From Deltaproteobacteria bacterium (lineage in GTDB: Bacteria > Desulfobacterota > Desulfobaccia > Desulfobaccales > 0-14-0-80-60-11): a stretch of 57,372 bases of DNA. How positions within the stretch are numbered: the first letter of the stretch is position 1; the number at the start of each line of letters is the position of its first letter. The stretch is taken from assembly GCA_021813445.1 (NCBI GenBank), contig JAKAKP010000163.1:1-57372 (forward strand), written 5' to 3'. Below, one piece after another: positions 47,371-55,050 of the stretch. Both the position numbers and the translations under genes were made by a program. Under the pieces are notes generated by a model. That model made no database searches and was not told the DNA's origin. It worked only from the letters and a program-made list of their open reading frames with translations.

Positions 47371-47637
47371 TTACTTTTTGGGTGTGGGCTGTGCCGGCTG
47401 CTGTTGCTGCTGCTGCATCTTCATCATGGGACACGATTGCATCCACTGCGCCATTTGTTCCTGCATCTTCTTCATTTCCTCCGGGGTCATCTGCTTCTGG
47501 GACATCATCATCGCCATGCAGGGACACATCATCATAGTGGGCTGTTGCGGCTGCGGAGCCGGAGCCTGTTGGGCCAGGGCCATGCCAGAGCCGGCAGTCA
47601 ACGCCAGTGCCAATAGAATAACCACCATCTTTTTCAT
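47371..47637 (-). CDS. Small Met/Cys-rich secreted protein
   Basis: 88 residues. A signal peptide (MVVILLALALTAGSGMALAQ) is followed by a Gln/Pro linker and MMMCPCMAMMMSQKQMTPEE, then MAQWMQSCPMMKMQ and a poly-Gln stretch. The Met/Cys clusters are typical of periplasmic copper- or silver-binding proteins (inference). RBS GGAGG precedes the ATG. Confidence 0.75.
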   Translation of the reverse strand: MKKMVVILLALALTAGSGMALAQQAPAPQPQQPTMMMCPCMAMMMSQKQMTPEEMKKMQEQMAQWMQSCPMMKMQQQQQQPAQPTPKK

Positions 47638-48891: not shown

Positions 48892-49005
48892 TTAATTCAG
48901 ATCAAGTCCAATGAAGAGAGCCAGGGGGCCCTTCTCTTCGGCTAAAGCCATGCTAAAGCCGATAATCAGCGCCATTGCCAATGCCAGTACGATTACTTTT
49001 TTCAT
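48892..49005 (-). CDS. 37-residue secreted peptide
   Basis: ATG at 49005 follows GGGAGG by five bases. The peptide is almost only a signal sequence (KKVIVLALAMALIIGFSMAL) and a short mature end EEKGPLALFIGLDLN. It lies 57 bases after the ArsM-DUF2284 gene in the arsenic operon. Function unknown. Confidence 0.5.
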   Translation of the reverse strand: MKKVIVLALAMALIIGFSMALAEEKGPLALFIGLDLN

Positions 49006-49061
49006 GACTACCTCCCTTACCTGAGGTGGTTTCACTTACGGGCCAAATCGGCCAATTCCCG

Positions 49062-50579
49062 CTATTCGATCAGGATCAGGGCGAAGTAGTTCCATCGGCC
49101 AAAGGTCTCTTTTCTGGTGTCGATGTCAAAGTCGTTGTGTCTGGCAGTTTTAAACACATCAATACCGCAGGCTTCCATCATGGGCCTGATCCTGAGTTTG
49201 GTTAGTTCGCTTCTCTGAGGCCCAGGCTGGGCCTCTGCTGCTGCTGTGGGGCAAGTACCGCCAGGGCTGGGAGATGGTTTAACCTCTTTGGTTTTCAAAG
49301 GCTCACCCGGAGCCTCCGCCTGCTTGGAGGGTCAGCCAGCGCCAGGGTTTGGTTTGACCTCCTCCACCCTTACAGGCTCCGCCGGAGCCTGGGTCTCACC
49401 GGATGGTCAGGTGGCCCCCGGAGCGGAGGCCGGCGCACACGCAGACAAACCACTGGGCACCAGGGCGACGAGAGCGAAGGCCTTATAGTAACCCCGATGG
49501 TAAGCTTCGCCTTCCAGCTTAACCGCCGCTTCGCTTAGCGTCTGCCCATTGGGACCATTGAGAAGGATGGCCTTGGTATATTCTCCGAGAACCCTTTTTG
49601 TGCTTGCCGCATCCGGGGCGAAGGGGGGGTGGAAGGGGGCTTTCTCGAAGAGAGGGCAACCATACTGGCACTTCCATCTCACCCATTCCTCCACCGCCAC
49701 CGTTTCCGCGTCGATGATTTTGGCTTTCTCGGCCCCCAACTCCAAGGCCCGTTTTAGCAGGTATTCCATCTTACCCTCCCGCATTCCCGCCTCTCCGGTT
49801 GGTTTTCGCTCCCAAACACCCGCCTCCACGGGCGGCTTGACGGCTCGAAACAACACTCCCTTGGTTACCGGAGAGCTGTTGAAGCCGGTTTCCATTGCCA
49901 GTTCGGACTCTTCAAACCCCGCCTGTTCTAACAGTGCCAGGAAAACCTTTCCCGGTATGGCTCCGCCTTCTCACCTGGCCCAGTTCTCCACGCGAGCTTT
50001 GGTTTCCTTGGGCAATTCCCCGGCCAGCACCTGGTCGGCCAACATGAACCGCCCTCCCGGCTTCAGAACCCGGTAGACTTCGCCCAGAGCTTTGACTTTA
50101 TCCACCACCAGGTTAAAGACGCCATTGGAGATCACCAAGTCAAAGCTGTTATCAGGGAAGGGCAACCGTTCCGCGGATGATTCCTGGAAAGTGACGTTAT
50201 CGACGCCTGCCAGGCGAGCATTCTCGCTCGCTTTGGCCAGCATCTCGGGAACCAGGTCAATTCCCGTCACTGCCCCCGAAGGCCCCACCAGCTTTGCGGC
50301 AATGATGGAATCGACCCCGGCGCCGCAACCGATGTCCAGGACCGTTTCACCTTCCCGAATCGGCCCTAAGGTAAAAGGGTTACCCACCCCACAATAGGCA
50401 GCGGCCACGGGCTCCGGCAGCCCACGGACCAGATCCGGAGCATAGTTCAGCGCCTCCAGCCCGGCCCGGCCGGTGGGGTACCGAAAGAGTCCTTCCGGGC
50501 TGGCGGCAACCTTGAGGTATTTCCCCCGGATGCTCGCCTCGATCCGTTGCTTGTCTTGGCGGGTTAACTCGTTTTCCAT
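49062..50579 (-). CDS. arsM: ArsM-DUF2284 fusion, predicted selenoprotein with three UGA codons
   Basis: One frame of 505 codons with three in-frame TGA (residues 203, 391, 416). Residues 1-232 are an arsenite S-adenosylmethionine methyltransferase: FRYPTG, Cys63 in AAYCGVGNPF, VLDIGCGAG, VISNGVFNLV and YRVLKPGGRF. The first TGA (49973-49971) falls in W-A-R-U-E-G-G-A, exactly where ArsM has its second catalytic Cys (W-x-x-C-x-x-G-A), and LALLEQAGF continues beyond. After a linker, residues 271-505 form a DUF2284 domain (KCQYGCPLF, PPFAPD, EYTKAILL, GYYKAFAL, MMEACGIDVF, closing TAG). Two more TGA (49409-49407, 49334-49332) lie in a repeat inside it; the third copy has TGC. An internal ATG at 49769 with GGGAGGG upstream could also start DUF2284 alone. 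Confidence 0.82.
49217..49235 (-). other. Hairpin after the Cys codon of the third repeat
   Basis: GAGGCCCAGCCTGGGCCTC is a near-perfect palindrome beginning 15 bases after the TGC at 49253-49251. It is in the same place as the SECIS-like hairpins of the two preceding repeat units, which suggests that this unit descended from a UGA-bearing copy. Confidence 0.55.
49299..49315 (-). other. SECIS-like hairpin after the second repeat UGA
   Basis: AGGCTC pairs with GAGCCT around the loop CGGGT, starting 16 bases after the TGA at 49334-49332. A loop with GG/GU at about 22-26 bases from the UGA fits bacterial SECIS spacing (established range roughly 16-37 bases). Confidence 0.6.
49373..49391 (-). 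other. SECIS-like hairpin after the first repeat UGA
   Basis: CAGGCTCCGGCGGAGCCTG forms a 7-bp stem with loop CGGCG, starting 15 bases after the TGA at 49409-49407. Spacing and G-containing loop fit a bacterial SECIS element read by SelB. Confidence 0.62.
49936..49961 (-). other. Possible SECIS-like hairpin after the ArsM UGA
   Basis: Nine bases after the TGA (49973-49971), GCCA pairs with TGGC, enclosing ACC/GGT around a GGGAAA loop with an internal bulge. It is weaker than the hairpins after the repeat UGA codons, but the loop lies at a plausible distance. Confidence 0.4.
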
Positions 50580-50590
50580 CCTTGTACCCC

Positions 50591-50851
50591 TTAACCCTGG
50601 ATATTCCTTCTCATCTGCTCGAATTCATCTTTGGTGATCTCACCCTTGGCATACCTGGTCTTCAGTATGTCTAAGGGGGATTCCAATTCTCTGCCTGGGC
50701 TGTAATGCCTGTCAGCATTGTGCCAGGGCGGCCTGAACCCGCCCCGGCCAAAGATAAAGTAGAGGCAGAGCAACAAGACGACCAGCATGATAATGGGCAT
50801 GAACATGGGGAAAAACCACATGGGGCTCCACCAAACATAATCCGGGTGCAT
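50591..50851 (-). CDS. SHOCT-domain membrane protein
   Basis: 86 residues: one long hydrophobic segment (FMPIIMLVVLLLCLYFIF), a short linker, and a C-terminal SHOCT motif (LDILKTRYAKGEITKDEFEQ). Common as a small membrane accessory beside metal genes. It is 12 bases upstream of the ArsM fusion in the operon. Confidence 0.82.
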   Translation of the reverse strand: MHPDYVWWSPMWFFPMFMPIIMLVVLLLCLYFIFGRGGFRPPWHNADRHYSPGRELESPLDILKTRYAKGEITKDEFEQMRRNIQG

Positions 50852-50878
50852 TTTATTCTCCTAATTCAAGTCTTGAGT

Positions 50879-51139
50879 TTACAACTTCACCCCGGTTATC
50901 TTGAGCTTGCCTTCTCTGACCAGCTTGCCGATTAGGAAGTGGACGCTCTCTTCGGAGAGCTTGAGTTGGGCAGCCAGGTCAGCAGGGGGGCAACTTCCCC
51001 TTTCCTTAAGAAATTCAATAACCTCACCTTCCAACGCTTTAACCCACTCCTCAAACAACCCTCTCAATTCCGGGGAGGCAAAACCCGCCAGCCTGCCGAC
51101 CTCGACGACCGTACCGGTCATCTGCTCGCACATCTGCAT
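50879..51139 (-). CDS. Small winged-helix-like protein
   Basis: 86 residues with Cys5 (MQMCEQMTG) and a C-terminal winged helix pattern (CPPADLAAQLKLSEESVHFL, IGKLVREGKLKITGVKL). It starts directly after the stop of the 32-residue gene. It may be a regulator of the operon or a DNA-binding accessory. Confidence 0.65.
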   Translation of the reverse strand: MQMCEQMTGTVVEVGRLAGFASPELRGLFEEWVKALEGEVIEFLKERGSCPPADLAAQLKLSEESVHFLIGKLVREGKLKITGVKL

Positions 51140-51238
51140 TCACCTCTCCACCATGGGCAGCATGGAACCGCCTTGACCCTCCAGCATCTTTTTCATCATC
51201 TCCATGCCCATGCCCGGGCCGCAACCTTTCTCTTCCAT
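51140..51238 (-). CDS. 32-residue Met-rich small protein
   Basis: ATG at 51238 has GAGGGAAGG five bases upstream, and the stop abuts the next ATG (TGAATG). The sequence starts MEEKGCGPGMGMEMMKKMLE and ends MLPMVER. Seven Met and one Cys suggest metalloid or copper binding (inference). The good ribosome site and tight coupling make it a real gene despite its size. Confidence 0.65.
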   Translation of the reverse strand: MEEKGCGPGMGMEMMKKMLEGQGGSMLPMVER

Positions 51239-51275
51239 GGTAACCTTCCCTCAGTTATATTGTTGATCTTAATTA

Positions 51276-51989
51276 TTAATCATCGAGGCTCAACATCTCT
51301 CTCTTGGCCCTGAGTTTCTTATAAAAAAAAGGTATTAGGCCGACCAAGGCCACCAGGATGATCCCCACCGCCACGCCCCAAGTGAGCTTTCCCCGGACCA
51401 GGTCCAGGAGGTTGGCGGAGAAATAGATAATGGCAATGGTCATGGGAAGCATGAAAATGAAGGTGCTCACTGCGTAGGCCAGCAGCGAAATCCTGGTGAG
51501 GCCGAAGGCATAGTTTAGCAAGTTATAAGGGAATAAGGGCACGAGCCGGGTTAAGGCCACGATCTTCCAGCCATGCTGCCCCACTTTCTCGTCCAGGGTG
51601 GATAGCTTGGTGCCCGAGAGTTTGGCGGCCACCCAGTCCCGGGCCAGGTAGCGGGCCACCAGGAAGGCTAAGGTGGCGCCGATGGTCGCTCCGAAGATGG
51701 TATAGACCACCCCCCAAAAGGGGCCGAACAAGATGCCGCCGGCCAACCCGATGGGCAATCCTGGCAGGAAAAGCGGAGGAGCGGCTACCCAGATAAGCGT
51801 GTAAATCACCGGCCCCCAGGTGCCGTAGCCTGCCACTGCCTGGCGCAGCCTCTCCTTTTCCAGGTATTGATCCAGCTGGAAATAGCGCACTGTAAGGATA
51901 ATTGCTCCCAGAAGCGCGAGAAAAACCAGGGGCCGGATAACGGAAGGCTTCGAAGGAGCGGACTCCTTATCTTGCATCATGTTCTCCAT
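51276..51989 (-). CDS. TVP38/TMEM64 (DedA-like) membrane protein
   Basis: 237 residues, five or six membrane helices. The SNARE-associated/VTT motif region is clear: LFLPGLPIGLAGGILFGPFW, GATIGATLAFLVARYLARDW, LTRLVPLFPYNLLNYAFGL. Family members act in membrane or lipid transport and occur near mercury and arsenic genes in several bacteria, where transport of the metalloid is suspected but unproven. It follows the ArsR gene by four bases. Confidence 0.85.
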   Translation of the reverse strand: MENMMQDKESAPSKPSVIRPLVFLALLGAIILTVRYFQLDQYLEKERLRQAVAGYGTWGPVIYTLIWVAAPPLFLPGLPIGLAGGILFGPFWGVVYTIFGATIGATLAFLVARYLARDWVAAKLSGTKLSTLDEKVGQHGWKIVALTRLVPLFPYNLLNYAFGLTRISLLAYAVSTFIFMLPMTIAIIYFSANLLDLVRGKLTWGVAVGIILVALVGLIPFFYKKLRAKREMLSLDD

Positions 51990-51993
51990 GGGT

Positions 51994-52350
51994 TTATTTC
52001 ATCCACCTCTGCATGAACCGCATCGGTGGGAACATAAAGGTTCCCTTGTCTTCGATCTCACCCTTGGGGGAAACCCCGGCAAGGGAAATCAAAAGATCGA
52101 TTAAACCCGGCTCCGAGACGCTATAATAGACAAAAGGCCCTTTTCGCTCCGTCGCCAGGAGGCCGCTTTCCCGCAGCGGCCTTAAGTGAAAAGACACCAG
52201 GGTCTGCGACAATGAGGTCTCATTTATTATTTCTGAGACTGATTTTTTCTCCTTGCCTATTGCAAAGATTATCCTCAACCTGTTGGCATCGCTTAAAAGC
52301 TTGAATAGCTTAGCGAGCGAATCCAGTATTTTCTCATCTAGCAGTTTCAT
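51994..52350 (-). CDS. ArsR-family repressor without Cys
   Basis: 118 residues with the ArsR/SmtB winged helix (LFKLLSDANRLRIIFAI, TSLSQTLVSFHLRPLRESGL, GPFVYYSVSEPGL). It has no Cys at all, so a classical thiolate As(III) site is missing; the Met-rich end (FMFPPMRFMQRWMK) might take part instead. It leads the arsenic operon and probably binds the palindrome in its own promoter. Confidence 0.85.
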   Translation of the reverse strand: MKLLDEKILDSLAKLFKLLSDANRLRIIFAIGKEKKSVSEIINETSLSQTLVSFHLRPLRESGLLATERKGPFVYYSVSEPGLIDLLISLAGVSPKGEIEDKGTFMFPPMRFMQRWMK

Positions 52351-52366
52351 AAATGAGCCATCTTTT

Positions 52367-52399
52367 ATATGAGTATAAGCTCATATAATTGCTTGTCAA
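52367..52399 (-). promoter_or_regulatory. Promoter and ArsR-type operator of the arsenic operon
   Basis: TTGACA (52399-52394) and TATACT (52377-52372) on the minus strand are 16 bases apart. A perfect palindrome, ATATGAG-6 bases-CTCATAT (52367-52386), covers the -10 box, the expected place for an ArsR repressor site. Confidence 0.75.
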
Positions 52400-52477
52400 C
52401 CCCTGTAGATGATTTGCCATAAAATTCTATGGGTCTCTAAAAAAGTGCTATTTGGGCCGCTGATTTCTAAGGAAAGA

Positions 52478-53023
52478 TCAAGGTGAATTGGAATCACACC
52501 GGCATCCATCTCCTTTGCAGGAGGGGCCTGCCGGGGCGGGATCAGGCGAGGGCTGGTGCCGGTTCATCCACCACCAGGCCCCGATAATGGAGAGTGTGGT
52601 GACCACGGCCACCAGGGGCTTGGCCAGGGGGAGAAACCCGGCACCGAACAGGCTCAGGTAAACCACCAGCATGGGGGAGCCGCAGCAGCCCACCAGGAAG
52701 CAGCCCGCCAGGGCCAGGAAGCCCGAGAGCACCCCGCCGAAAGCCAGGGTTTTGGCGGAACAGAAGCGCTCTTCCCGGTAACGCCGCAGGGCCGCGGCCG
52801 CAAACGCCAGGGACAGGGCGTAGGAATAACCCAGCCAGTAGCCCTGGGTCTCCAGGTAGTGATTCAGCCAGGAGGCATCCGAGGCCGAGGGGGAAGCCCA
52901 TCGGGCCTGAGCAGGGTCCACTTCCGGGAACAGGCCGGACCATACATAGTGCGCCGCCGCCACCCCCAGAAAAACCGCCAGGGGCAACAGAAAGCGCCAT
53001 AATTTCTGCCCCAAAGAGGTCAT
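52478..53023 (-). CDS. Membrane protein with GCCGSP motif
   Basis: 181 residues, four or five membrane helices. The central helices hold FLALAGCFLVGCCGSPMLVV, with a Cys cluster within the membrane, and the C terminus ends in KGDGCRCDSNSP. The layout (membrane Cys pair plus Cys-rich cytoplasmic tail) recalls metal or mercury transport proteins, but the family is not recognised. It overlaps the OB-fold gene by four bases. Confidence 0.6.
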   Translation of the reverse strand: MTSLGQKLWRFLLPLAVFLGVAAAHYVWSGLFPEVDPAQARWASPSASDASWLNHYLETQGYWLGYSYALSLAFAAAALRRYREERFCSAKTLAFGGVLSGFLALAGCFLVGCCGSPMLVVYLSLFGAGFLPLAKPLVAVVTTLSIIGAWWWMNRHQPSPDPAPAGPSCKGDGCRCDSNSP

Positions 53024-53433
53024 GGGCGAGTCACCTTCTCCAGCTTCTCAGCCACAAACATGAGCTTGCCTTGGACTTCCTGGGCCTGCCCTTCTACCCG
53101 CACCAAGTCGCGCACGGCGGGCATGGGGCCGCGCCATTGCACCGGCAAGGTCAGTTGGGCGCAGGTGGTAACGCCGCAGGCCTGTAATTCACCGCTATCG
53201 ATGAGGGAAATCGCCTGCTGCTCCGGGGTTACGGCGCTTACCACCCCTTCCAGACTCACTTTTCCTTTGTAGCGGTCCACATTTTTCATGAAATCATCGA
53301 CTCCCAAAACCTTTTTAGGGGACGCGGCCACCTCGCCGGCCTGGAGGCCTTGGCTCAGGCTAAAGACCACCAAAAAGGCGATCGTCATGGCGGTAATTAC
53401 ACTAAATGTATTAGGCTTGGCACATCGTTGCAT
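53020..53433 (-). CDS. Secreted OB-fold-like protein
   Basis: 137 residues: signal peptide (ITAMTIAFLVVFSLSQGLQA), then a beta-barrel pattern (GKVSLEGVVSAVTPEQQAIS, LIDSGELQACGVTTCAQLTL, VRVEGQAQEVQGKLMFVAEK). Two Cys in ACGVTTC may bind metal or form a disulfide. It sits between the corrinoid protein and the GCCGSP membrane protein in one operon. Confidence 0.65.
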   Translation of the reverse strand: MQRCAKPNTFSVITAMTIAFLVVFSLSQGLQAGEVAASPKKVLGVDDFMKNVDRYKGKVSLEGVVSAVTPEQQAISLIDSGELQACGVTTCAQLTLPVQWRGPMPAVRDLVRVEGQAQEVQGKLMFVAEKLEKVTRP

Positions 53434-53512
53434 TTATCAACTCCTATTAGGGGAGGGAATTGGTCTAAGGGGTTGACAATCCGTGCAGCCGACCGGCTGC
53501 TTCTCAGGTCCC

Positions 53513-54688
53513 TCAGGCTCCGGCCTCATTGCAGGCAGGGTCGCAGGCGACGCTTGCCAGGGTGAGAGGCGGGGCCAATTCCGGCGCGGCATCCTGCACG
53601 AACGGCTCCCCGACACGCAAACTCTCCTCGGCCCGGGCCAGTTCCCCGCCCAGATAAGCGGCGTGATCCAGGCGGGAGATAAGGCCCCGGTCAATGGCCG
53701 GAGTATAAAGCTCTGCGGCGGTGGCGCCCTCAATCACTACATCCAGCAACCCGTCATTGAGGTAATGCTCCAGAGACAGTATTCCCCGGCCCCGGTCCAC
53801 ATAAATGACGAAGTAACCGGCAGGGTCGCTCACCATACGGGTGGGCAGATAGCCGGGGATCGGCGACACGACGGGGCCGGCGGCAAATGGCTGGGCTGTC
53901 CCCGGATTCCGGGCGGCGCACCGTTGTGCCGCCGAGAGCACCTTGCAGGCCTCGACTTCTCCGATGAGGTCAATCACCTCCACCACCTCCCGGAAGTGGG
54001 CCACGGCCTCGGGGCTGAGGTTTTTTAGGAGGGGCCGCCGTCCCTGCGCCCCCACGATGCGCCTGCGGTCATCCATGCCATACTGCGCCAGGGCCACCAG
54101 CGATTGCCCCGGATAGTGCCCCACGGCTTGCTGGGAGTCGGGGCCGCAGACAATCACAAAACGCAGGTGGGGGTTGGCCAGGACATTCTGAATAAGTCGC
54201 TCGATCCCCAAATTTTCGGTATGCAGCGTCCCCACCAAAGCGATTTCCGGGCCGCCCTCCCGCACCACGGCAGCAGCCAGGTCCTCAGCCGTGATGCAGC
54301 ATACGGCCAACGGAGCCTGGTAGCGCAGCACCCGGTAGGTTCCGGGCAGAGGCGGCCACCCCCGGCGTTCTTCCACCTTTTCTGTAGGGCAAACCTCAAG
54401 GTCGGCCACGGCTTCGCCCAAAGCCTGGGTTAAAGCGTTCACTACCAGGGGCGGGATGCAGACTTCGCACCCCAGGCAGTCATATTGGCGCTCCACCAAA
54501 CATAGCTTCGCGGTTTCCACCGTTTCCCGGAGTTCCTGTGGGCCTGCCCCCGCCGGGAAAGCCTGTTCCAGCGCCACGACAAGTTGATGAAAGCAGCCGC
54601 AGGCCCGGCATTTCTCCGCGGCCATGGCCTCTTGCAAATACGTCAAGGCTTTCTTAAGGGCCTGCTCTTTTTCTTGGTTTAGGTTCAT
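53513..54688 (-). CDS. MtrA-like corrinoid protein fused to DUF4346
   Basis: 391 residues. The N terminus has Cys clusters (KCRACGC at 27-32; CLGCEVC at 71-77). Residues about 110-250 match subunit A of methyl-H4MPT:CoM methyltransferase: WPPLPGTYRV, LVGTLHTENLGIERLIQNVL and VIVCGPD..AVGHYPGQS, where His191 corresponds to the cobalt ligand of MtrA. The C-terminal 115 residues are DUF4346-like (AGYFVIYVDRGRGILSLEHY, AAYLGGELARAEESLRVG). It has no membrane anchor. The start overlaps the ArsR stop, so it is co-regulated. A role in methyl transfer to or from a metal(loid) is an inference. Confidence 0.75.
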   Translation of the reverse strand: MNLNQEKEQALKKALTYLQEAMAAEKCRACGCFHQLVVALEQAFPAGAGPQELRETVETAKLCLVERQYDCLGCEVCIPPLVVNALTQALGEAVADLEVCPTEKVEERRGWPPLPGTYRVLRYQAPLAVCCITAEDLAAAVVREGGPEIALVGTLHTENLGIERLIQNVLANPHLRFVIVCGPDSQQAVGHYPGQSLVALAQYGMDDRRRIVGAQGRRPLLKNLSPEAVAHFREVVEVIDLIGEVEACKVLSAAQRCAARNPGTAQPFAAGPVVSPIPGYLPTRMVSDPAGYFVIYVDRGRGILSLEHYLNDGLLDVVIEGATAAELYTPAIDRGLISRLDHAAYLGGELARAEESLRVGEPFVQDAAPELAPPLTLASVACDPACNEAGA

Positions 54689-55050
54689 CTGCTTCTCGCT
54701 TTAGCATCTTCGCTGAGGCAAAGACCATGATCCAGGATTTCGATGACGCACCGGTCTACAATCCGGTAATAGATATTGTTGCCGTTGCGCCTGTGTCCCA
54801 GGAAGCCGCGATCCACCAGTTTCTGGAGCTGGTTGGAGACTGCCTGGGGTTTCATGCCCAAGAGATCGGCCAGTTCGGTCATGCGCATCTCTTCCGCCCG
54901 TACCAGCGCATGGATGAGCCGCAAGCGCGTATCATTGGCCAGGACCTTGAACAATCCCACCATCTCGGCGGCTTGCTCCCCCGTCAGCAAGGGGCGATCC
55001 TCCAATCTGGGCTTGGGCAGGCAGGTTTTGGGAACACTTTCAGCTTTCAT
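54685..55050 (-). CDS. ArsR/SmtB-family metal-responsive repressor
   Basis: 121 residues with the winged helix (FKVLANDTRLRLIHALV, MTELADLLGMKPQAVSNQLQ, NNIYYRIVD). Cys occur at residue 10 (KTCLPKP) and in DRCVIEILDHGLCLSEDA. C-terminal Cys in this arrangement serve as metal ligands in CmtR/CadC-type sensors. The -10 box lies only eight bases before the ATG at 55050, so the mRNA is almost leaderless or the true start is the internal ATG at about residue 30. Confidence 0.87.
   Translation of the reverse strand: MKAESVPKTCLPKPRLEDRPLLTGEQAAEMVGLFKVLANDTRLRLIHALVRAEEMRMTELADLLGMKPQAVSNQLQKLVDRGFLGHRRNGNNIYYRIVDRCVIEILDHGLCLSEDAKARSR

Follow-up and report, generated by a model that had tools for sequence, protein, structure and literature searches.

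What is encoded by a gene that is broken by three TGA codons, two of which recur, together with a TGC, at the same place of a repeat, and what might such a repeat do? The gene lies at 49062..50579 on the reverse strand of the window (by which we mean the whole 57,372-nucleotide stretch of DNA analysed), and standard gene calling splits it into three ORFs (50579-49971, 49895-49407 and 49298-49062). Reading TGA as selenocysteine (Sec, U) gives an uninterrupted frame of 505 codons from 50579 to 49065, which has TGA at codons 203, 391 and 416, is closed by a TAG stop and would yield a 505-residue protein with three Sec.

The gene is a member of a known selenoprotein family

Profile searches place an ArsM-type methyltransferase in the N-terminal 250 residues and DUF2284 in the C-terminal 235. 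Against NCBIfam NF041536 (cut-off 575) the product scores 700.1 bits, and two related genes, a paralogue in the same genome (C106:39470-40999; locus L047) and a gene of the same genus (G236; locus L048), score 696.1 and 715.8 bits. Pfam PF10050 (DUF2284) matches in two stretches with 82.7 bits (gathering threshold 25). NF008823 (PRK11873, bacterial arsenite methyltransferase) reaches 199.1 bits, under its cut-off of 263; despite this, the solved structures closest to the methyltransferase core are those of ArsM/AS3MT. The hallmark of NF041536 is also in place, with Sec in the ArsM core (U203) and in the DUF2284 loop (U391, U416). By profile and hallmark, the gene is a member of this known family, in which a SAM-dependent ArsM-type methyltransferase is fused to a seleno-DUF2284. 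The paper behind NF041536 is reportedly that of Haft and Tolstoy in 2025. In a review table (PMC13188914), the family is listed with two Sec.

The TGA codons almost certainly encode Sec

That the TGAs encode Sec had been claimed in an earlier note on this DNA, and the claim is borne out by TGA-bearing relatives, purifying selection, SelB and tRNA-Sec, and SECIS covariation (below); we regard it as very nearly certain. In both the paralogue (U203, U393, U421, U448) and the same-genus gene (U203, U395, U427, U454), the ArsM site and each of the three units of the C-terminal repeat have TGA. Compared with one another, the three genes show a Nei-Gojobori dN/dS of 0.08-0.12 upstream of the first TGA, 0.14-0.32 between the TGAs of the repeat, and 0.08-0.10 over the 62 codons past the last TGA or unit 3; by these estimates, selection downstream of every TGA is purifying. 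SelB (364 bits) and tRNA-Sec (76 bits) are present in the same genome. The contrary reading, of true stops in a decaying pseudogene or in several short genes, agrees with the split made by standard gene calling, but dN/dS near 0.1 beyond the three TGAs, the same TGAs in two further genes, SECIS covariation, SelB and tRNA-Sec argue against it so consistently that we give it hardly any probability. The Cys in the third unit had been put forward as strong internal evidence for Sec; the Sec assignment stands, but Cys alone is weak evidence, and the support listed here is independent of it.

SECIS hairpins at a fixed distance from each TGA

Downstream of every TGA, positions +26 to +30 form the 5-nt apical loop of a hairpin with up to seven closing pairs, shifted by 3 nt in locus L070. 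In the window gene, these candidate bSECIS elements lie on the reverse strand at 49937..49955 for U203 (7 bp, loop AGGTT), 49373..49391 for unit 1 (7 bp, loop CGGCG) and 49298..49316 for unit 2 (7 bp, loop CGGGT). Over 34 DUF2284 TGA sites, the hairpin from +19 to +37 has a mean of 6.35 of 7 pairs, compared with at most 3.76 in 17 slid registers of the same hairpin. G27 is found at 33 of these sites, the exception being L070, whose hairpin is 3 nt nearer the TGA, and loop position 28 is G or T at all 34. A scan of genome contigs gave 69 loci, 26 of which (L050-L075) are seleno-DUF2284 loci outside the group of the window gene. Across 25 outside loci, two-sided changes occur at six of the seven stem pairs, and the stem covariation score is 0.404, against 0.197 for shuffled and at most 0.177 for slid stems.

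A SECIS covariance model trained on 25 outside loci alone (L070 was left out because of its displaced hairpin) returned the nine units of the three genes as the nine best matches in 75 kb, at 25-35 bits, with units 1 and 2 of the window gene at 33.3 and 25.7 bits. Scanning the window's own genome recovered all six units and also C109:12227-12269 (26.4 bits); this match has no plausible Sec reading frame and was taken for chance, and the model is therefore not perfectly specific. Given the encoded protein, the stem and loop of units 1 and 2 have P values of 0.001-0.005 in the three genes. At the ArsM-site TGA, P is 0.083-0.086 in the three genes (0.086 for U203 of the window gene), and unit 3 of the paralogue, with five pairs in a row, has P 0.15; neither is significant alone. 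The published bacterial SECIS model (PMC13188914) has a loop of 3-9 nt, a stem of 4-16 bp, a distance of 16-37 nt from the UGA, an MFE of at most -7.5, and G within the loop's first two positions, with mostly G or U next. The hairpins of all three TGAs of the window gene agree with it (loop 5 nt, stem 7 bp, NG[GT], 22 nt); their folding energies, taken over 45 nt, range from -12.7 to -19.0 kcal/mol. A search of 49000-53500 against Rfam was negative.

The Sec-bearing loop of DUF2284 is very probably triplicated

The repeat forms a Pro-rich arm of residues 376-468 (49176..49454, reverse strand), which the alignment places at the Cys-rich loop of ordinary DUF2284. Unit 1 reads ...APGATU391PSGETQAPAEPVRVEEVKPN, unit 2 PGAGU416PSKQAEAPGEPLKTKEVKPSPS and unit 3 PGGTC443PTAAAEA..., the codons in question being TGA 391 (49407..49409), TGA 416 (49332..49334) and TGC 443 (49251..49253), all on the reverse strand. 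Both TGAs stand in an open frame and are TGA in relatives, and TGA is also found at the place of the TGC in the paralogue and the same-genus gene. Spacings of 25 and 27 codons, with U, U and C at the same place of the repeat, agree with the earlier note; its term "alternation" went too far, as the order is U-U-C in the window gene and U-U-U in the other two.

In-register 63-nt identity between the units is 0.57, 0.49 and 0.60, as against a maximum of 0.54 and a mean of 0.28 for in-frame 63-nt windows elsewhere in the gene (69,378 pairs), and none of 3000 codon shuffles of the arm matched the observed maximum. The unit 1/3 pair taken alone (0.49) is under the gene-wide maximum; as a set, the repeats exceed what chance would be expected to give. 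The NF041536 profile, with one Sec segment, hits the arm in three separate stretches, and the unit spacings in the three genes are 25/27, 28/27 and 32/27 codons. Units out of frame or loss of the DUF2284 C terminus had been named as findings that would speak against a modular arm; in all three repeat-bearing genes the units are in frame and the C terminus is kept. The related genes, the SECIS hairpins and purifying selection thus strongly support the modular, Pro-rich, Sec-bearing arm of the earlier note, and its supposed flexibility is consistent with low AlphaFold confidence, the one line of support for that part. Since each unit of about 25 codons has its own UGA and SECIS hairpin at a fixed distance, a single duplication copies a whole Sec-insertion cassette, and in all likelihood the Sec-bearing DUF2284 loop was tripled in tandem as such a cassette in the window's genus.

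Among the loci read, three-unit genes occur solely in that genus, where they make up three of three. All 26 outside loci have one TGA-bearing DUF2284 unit, so that the proposed comparison of repeat number and U/C content in relatives yields a single unit outside and U-U-U in the two related genes; L049 (same contig as G236) and L082, L085 and L095 (deleted, shifted or cut in the region) are left out of this count. The outside loci are from Nitrospirota (Nitrospirae, Nitrospira), Desulfobacteraceae, other Deltaproteobacteria and Firmicutes-type bacteria. The seleno-DUF2284 comes after an MbdU-type N terminus in Nitrospirota loci (profile-tested for L052 only) and after ArsM in seven Desulfobacterota-type loci, and stands alone in the Firmicutes-type loci. 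It is found in two of 29 genomes of the order, and the full ArsM/DUF2284 fusion in two of seven genomes of the genus. The phylum of G406 gave 13 matches in 12 of 395 genomes, each with one TGA, several of which look like places already among the 69 loci and carry little independent weight. A further search gave 34 matches in 32 of 395 genomes, with TGA only in three, of G000 and G236. No match was found in a PDB sequence search with the seleno-DUF2284 or in a plasmid tblastn.

DNA-pattern searches for the repeat in the window's own genome gave 73 and 170 matches, compared with 26 and 50 for the reversed patterns, and are mostly chance. Other proteins with the repeat, for which the earlier note had suggested a search, did not emerge: among the matches listed, only the sites of the window gene and the paralogue were recognised. 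In seven ArsM-fused single-unit relatives (L051, L053, L060, L063, L065, L066 and L074), there is a Cys 9-10 residues past the Sec (UPSGETEAQC); it is absent in the three-unit forms. Same-genus seleno-ArsM proteins (L120-L126, L132) end in CAPGGAUAPK or similar tails, by eye like the repeat unit, and this motif may be a portable Sec module.

Unit 3 looks like a recent Sec-to-Cys switch

Every unit of the paralogue and of the G236 gene combines TGA with the hairpin and a loop that has G27/[GT]28. In unit 3 of the window gene (49217..49235, reverse strand; 28.8 bits with the covariance model of the outside loci), the 7-bp stem is kept and G28 is lost, position 28 being C in a loop that reads AGCCT as against AGGCT in the paralogue. 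As RNA (AGCCU), this loop lacks the G followed by G/U and departs from the published rule. TGA is present in all other units and loci examined, which by parsimony makes Cys the derived state, and unit 3 looks like a recent switch from Sec to Cys with a SECIS relic.

From just past U391 to past unit 2 (49281..49397, reverse strand; alignment columns 400-445), 19 sites are shared with the paralogue only, 5 are found in the window gene only and 4 are shared with G236 only, compared with 84, 214 and 76 such sites outside the tract. This best tract was matched in none of 5000 permutations, and the likeness of the window gene to the paralogue past U391 and through unit 2 is probably due to gene conversion. 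The tract stops before unit 3, and the Cys codon thus lies outside it.

Slippage may instead have multiplied a Sec linker neutrally, so that one arm Sec or none matters and the extra units drift. Such an expansion would account for the one unit that is enough in all 26 outside loci, for the variable unit lengths and linkers, for the Sec lost from unit 3, and for an arm dN/dS (0.14-0.32) higher than that of the C terminus (0.08-0.10). It sits poorly, however, with all three genes keeping all units in frame with Sec or Cys, with TGA, hairpin and loop conserved in every unit of the paralogue and G236, and with a change in unit 3 that went to Cys and not to another residue. A useless in-frame UGA should, moreover, come at a cost, given the competition between recoding and termination (PMC4513850). 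We consider neutral expansion rather unlikely.

The gene ends an operon with a second candidate selenoprotein

The fusion gene is last in an operon, on the reverse strand, with the order ArsR - VTT - TsoA-like - SHOCT-type - ArsM/DUF2284. It begins with an ArsR-family regulator (51994..52350; PF01022, 42.6 bits), followed by a VTT-domain (TVP38-like) membrane protein (51276..51989; PF09335, 84.7 bits), a TsoA-like winged-helix selenoprotein gene with one in-frame TGA (VERUMQMC; 50879..51238; NF045695, 59.2 bits, under its cut-off of 170) and a small membrane SHOCT protein (50591..50851; PF09851, 39.4 bits). The ArsR, VTT and TsoA-like genes are upstream in the same order at all three loci (the window, L047 and L048), and the SHOCT-type gene adjoins the fusion gene in the window and L047. 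In the TsoA-like gene, the TGA and the downstream GACCGGUACGGUC hairpin are kept in all three operons; its product perhaps represents a sister family of NF045695.

Adjoining the arsenic operon, 53513-55050 (reverse strand) encodes an ArsR-like regulator and then an MtrA-like corrinoid methyltransferase (53513-54688) with a pterin-binding DUF4346, possibly tied to methyl-metalloid chemistry. A small secreted Met/Cys-rich protein (MMMCPCMAMMM..., MQSCPMMKM; 47371-47637, reverse strand) has the looks of a copper-binding one. By eye, the window also has apparent CzcA/CusA-type efflux genes and a metal P-type ATPase, and hence looks like a metal/metalloid resistance region.

The arm as a possible source of arsenic ligands

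AlphaFold2 models the ArsM and DUF2284 cores with confidence and residues 376-468, with U391, U416 and C443 inside, at a pLDDT of about 30; by this model the arm is likely to be disordered. The full-length pTM is 0.55, and domain placement is therefore not informative. Ordinary Cys DUF2284 proteins have, in the alignment, a CxxCxxC...C loop at the arm's place, whereas the window DUF2284 has the Sec arm instead of CxxCxxC and the further Cys, and HPP for CPP. Cys34, Cys38, one Sec and Cys201 (domain numbering) do not vary across the 29 rows of the seleno-DUF2284 branch. With DUF2284 alone, Foldseek gave QueG as its best match (E 0.067, weak), and VIA gave RdhA (Z 8.4, rmsd 3.0, 111 aligned), QueG (7.6) and MMACHC (about 5). 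The modelled domain thus weakly resembles the B12-binding nitroreductase-like fold of these proteins, a likeness that we treat as a lead only, albeit with the MtrA-like corrinoid methyltransferase gene (53513-54688) close by.

U203 (TGA at 49971..49973, reverse strand) aligns with the Cys of the ArsM motif GEC.GGA, which we take to be CmArsM Cys224 in an arsenic site made up of Cys72, Cys174 and Cys224. The SNC motif (Cys174) is SNG in the window gene, so that its three-Cys site has Gly at the Cys174 position and Sec at the Cys224 position. All 30 U-ArsM sequences that have Sec at 203 have Gly at 153, and all 24 Cys-ArsM sequences have Cys at both places; the 56 rows compared include one without data and one Gly/Gly (L201, from the genome and place of L065). 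In L065, the ArsM-core Sec is replaced by Gly (WFQGEGGAV) and the DUF2284 Sec is retained. The Cys72 ligand of Sec-ArsM cores is mostly two residues upstream (CGVGNP versus GCGNP), and in the window gene, too, it is displaced by two residues.

Because of the Gly at the Cys174 position, the seleno core would be short of one chalcogen ligand, and an arm selenolate could therefore complete the arsenic site. Three units would form a long, flexible, Pro-rich arm that bears selenolate and thiolate ligands and carries them between a metal-binding DUF2284 core and the ArsM active site, where an arm selenolate would act as the arsenic ligand that is missing, or accept methylarsenite from the site; more units would raise the local ligand concentration and the reach. 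NCBIfam has fusions of seleno-ArsM to DUF2284 (NF041536), AhpD (NF041537) and a UXPK-star tail (NF047649), each adding Sec, and in all of them the appended Sec might complete or relay the arsenic site, the three-unit arm being the most elaborate case. Cassette triplication giving a ligand or relay arm is, overall, the best explanation that we can offer, and we put its chances at about even. For the arm's part as metalloid ligand or relay, which extends the sequence comparison to binding, our confidence is lower, and we propose it tentatively. The 30 Gly/Sec sequences are probably one clade, and their pairing is perhaps one ancestral event and not 30 independent ones, which counts against the ligand argument. 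Two standalone seleno-ArsM proteins (L020 and L022) have no arm and stop soon after the core, which may thus do without one; and as single-unit relatives manage with one Sec, three may be in excess.

The selenols might alternatively pair as a diselenide or selenenylsulfide and, rather than hold the metalloid, reduce a substrate, for which pentavalent arsenicals or the disulfide that ArsM forms in each cycle would be examples. A reductant is required for ArsM turnover, and chalcogen pairs do exist, given the Cys 9-10 residues past Sec in single-unit ArsM-fused relatives and a conserved Cys (CAP motif) that precedes unit 1 in the three-unit forms. But x-U-P-[ST] is neither a UxxC nor a CxxU redox motif, and known redox pairs do not resemble Sec residues at least 25 positions apart in a disordered arm; we judge a redox arm unlikely. 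Returning to the ligand and relay arm, its fullest version would have tandem duplication of a 25-codon UGA-plus-SECIS unit spread Sec, a multi-selenol swinging arm act as the missing third ligand and relay trivalent arsenicals to DUF2284, and the units be edited singly, from Sec to Cys or back, with gene conversion evening them out across the paralogues. As a whole this remains doubtful, if arguable.

Comparison with known systems

Prokaryotic selenoprotein families mostly have one Sec and a few have two or three (PMC13188914). In bacteria the SECIS is part of the coding sequence, and a new Sec site therefore requires both the codon and its signal; in this case a short cassette with both has very probably been copied twice, giving three or four Sec in one protein. 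The gene trio is a natural experiment, with one unit Sec in two relatives and Cys in the window gene, and, as unit 3 has kept its stem but not one of its key loop bases, what Sec costs and gains relative to Cys becomes testable one residue at a time. It also suggests, in concrete terms, why additional selenols might be required by an enzyme acting on arsenic. In the literature covered, which did not take in Haft and Tolstoy 2025, we found no mention of a repeated Sec unit in the NF041536 family; as far as that literature shows, the family is known, and what is new is a tandem Sec-SECIS cassette whose units switch one by one between Sec and Cys.

NF041536 has the same fusion, with Sec in the ArsM core and the DUF2284 loop, but its profile, of 459 positions, has one Sec segment and is fitted end to end by the single-unit L063 (829.6 bits), whereas the window gene and its two relatives have two extra arm units and three or four Sec in total. 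MbdU (NF045648) ends in a seleno-DUF2284 that is homologous and includes one UPSGE unit (L052, 698 bits), and differs in its N-terminal domain and in having a single unit. The methyltransferase/UXPK-star double selenoprotein NF047649 shares the seleno-ArsM core and has a single terminal Sec in a tail (...CAPGGAUAPK) that resembles the repeat unit PGGxUxP by eye only, since the 34-residue UXPK-star model NF047647 has no match to arm residues 376-466 up to E 10. Vertebrate selenoprotein P, for which we claim no homology, likewise has several Sec in one protein, but its SECIS elements in the 3' UTR serve all UGAs, whereas the window gene has a coding-region SECIS of its own for every Sec. By analogy, the arm may be likened to pyruvate dehydrogenase E2, with its tandem lipoyl domains on Ala/Pro-rich linkers: both would have repeated carrier units on such linkers, those of E2 being folded and provided with a cofactor, and those of the window protein short, presumably disordered Sec peptides.
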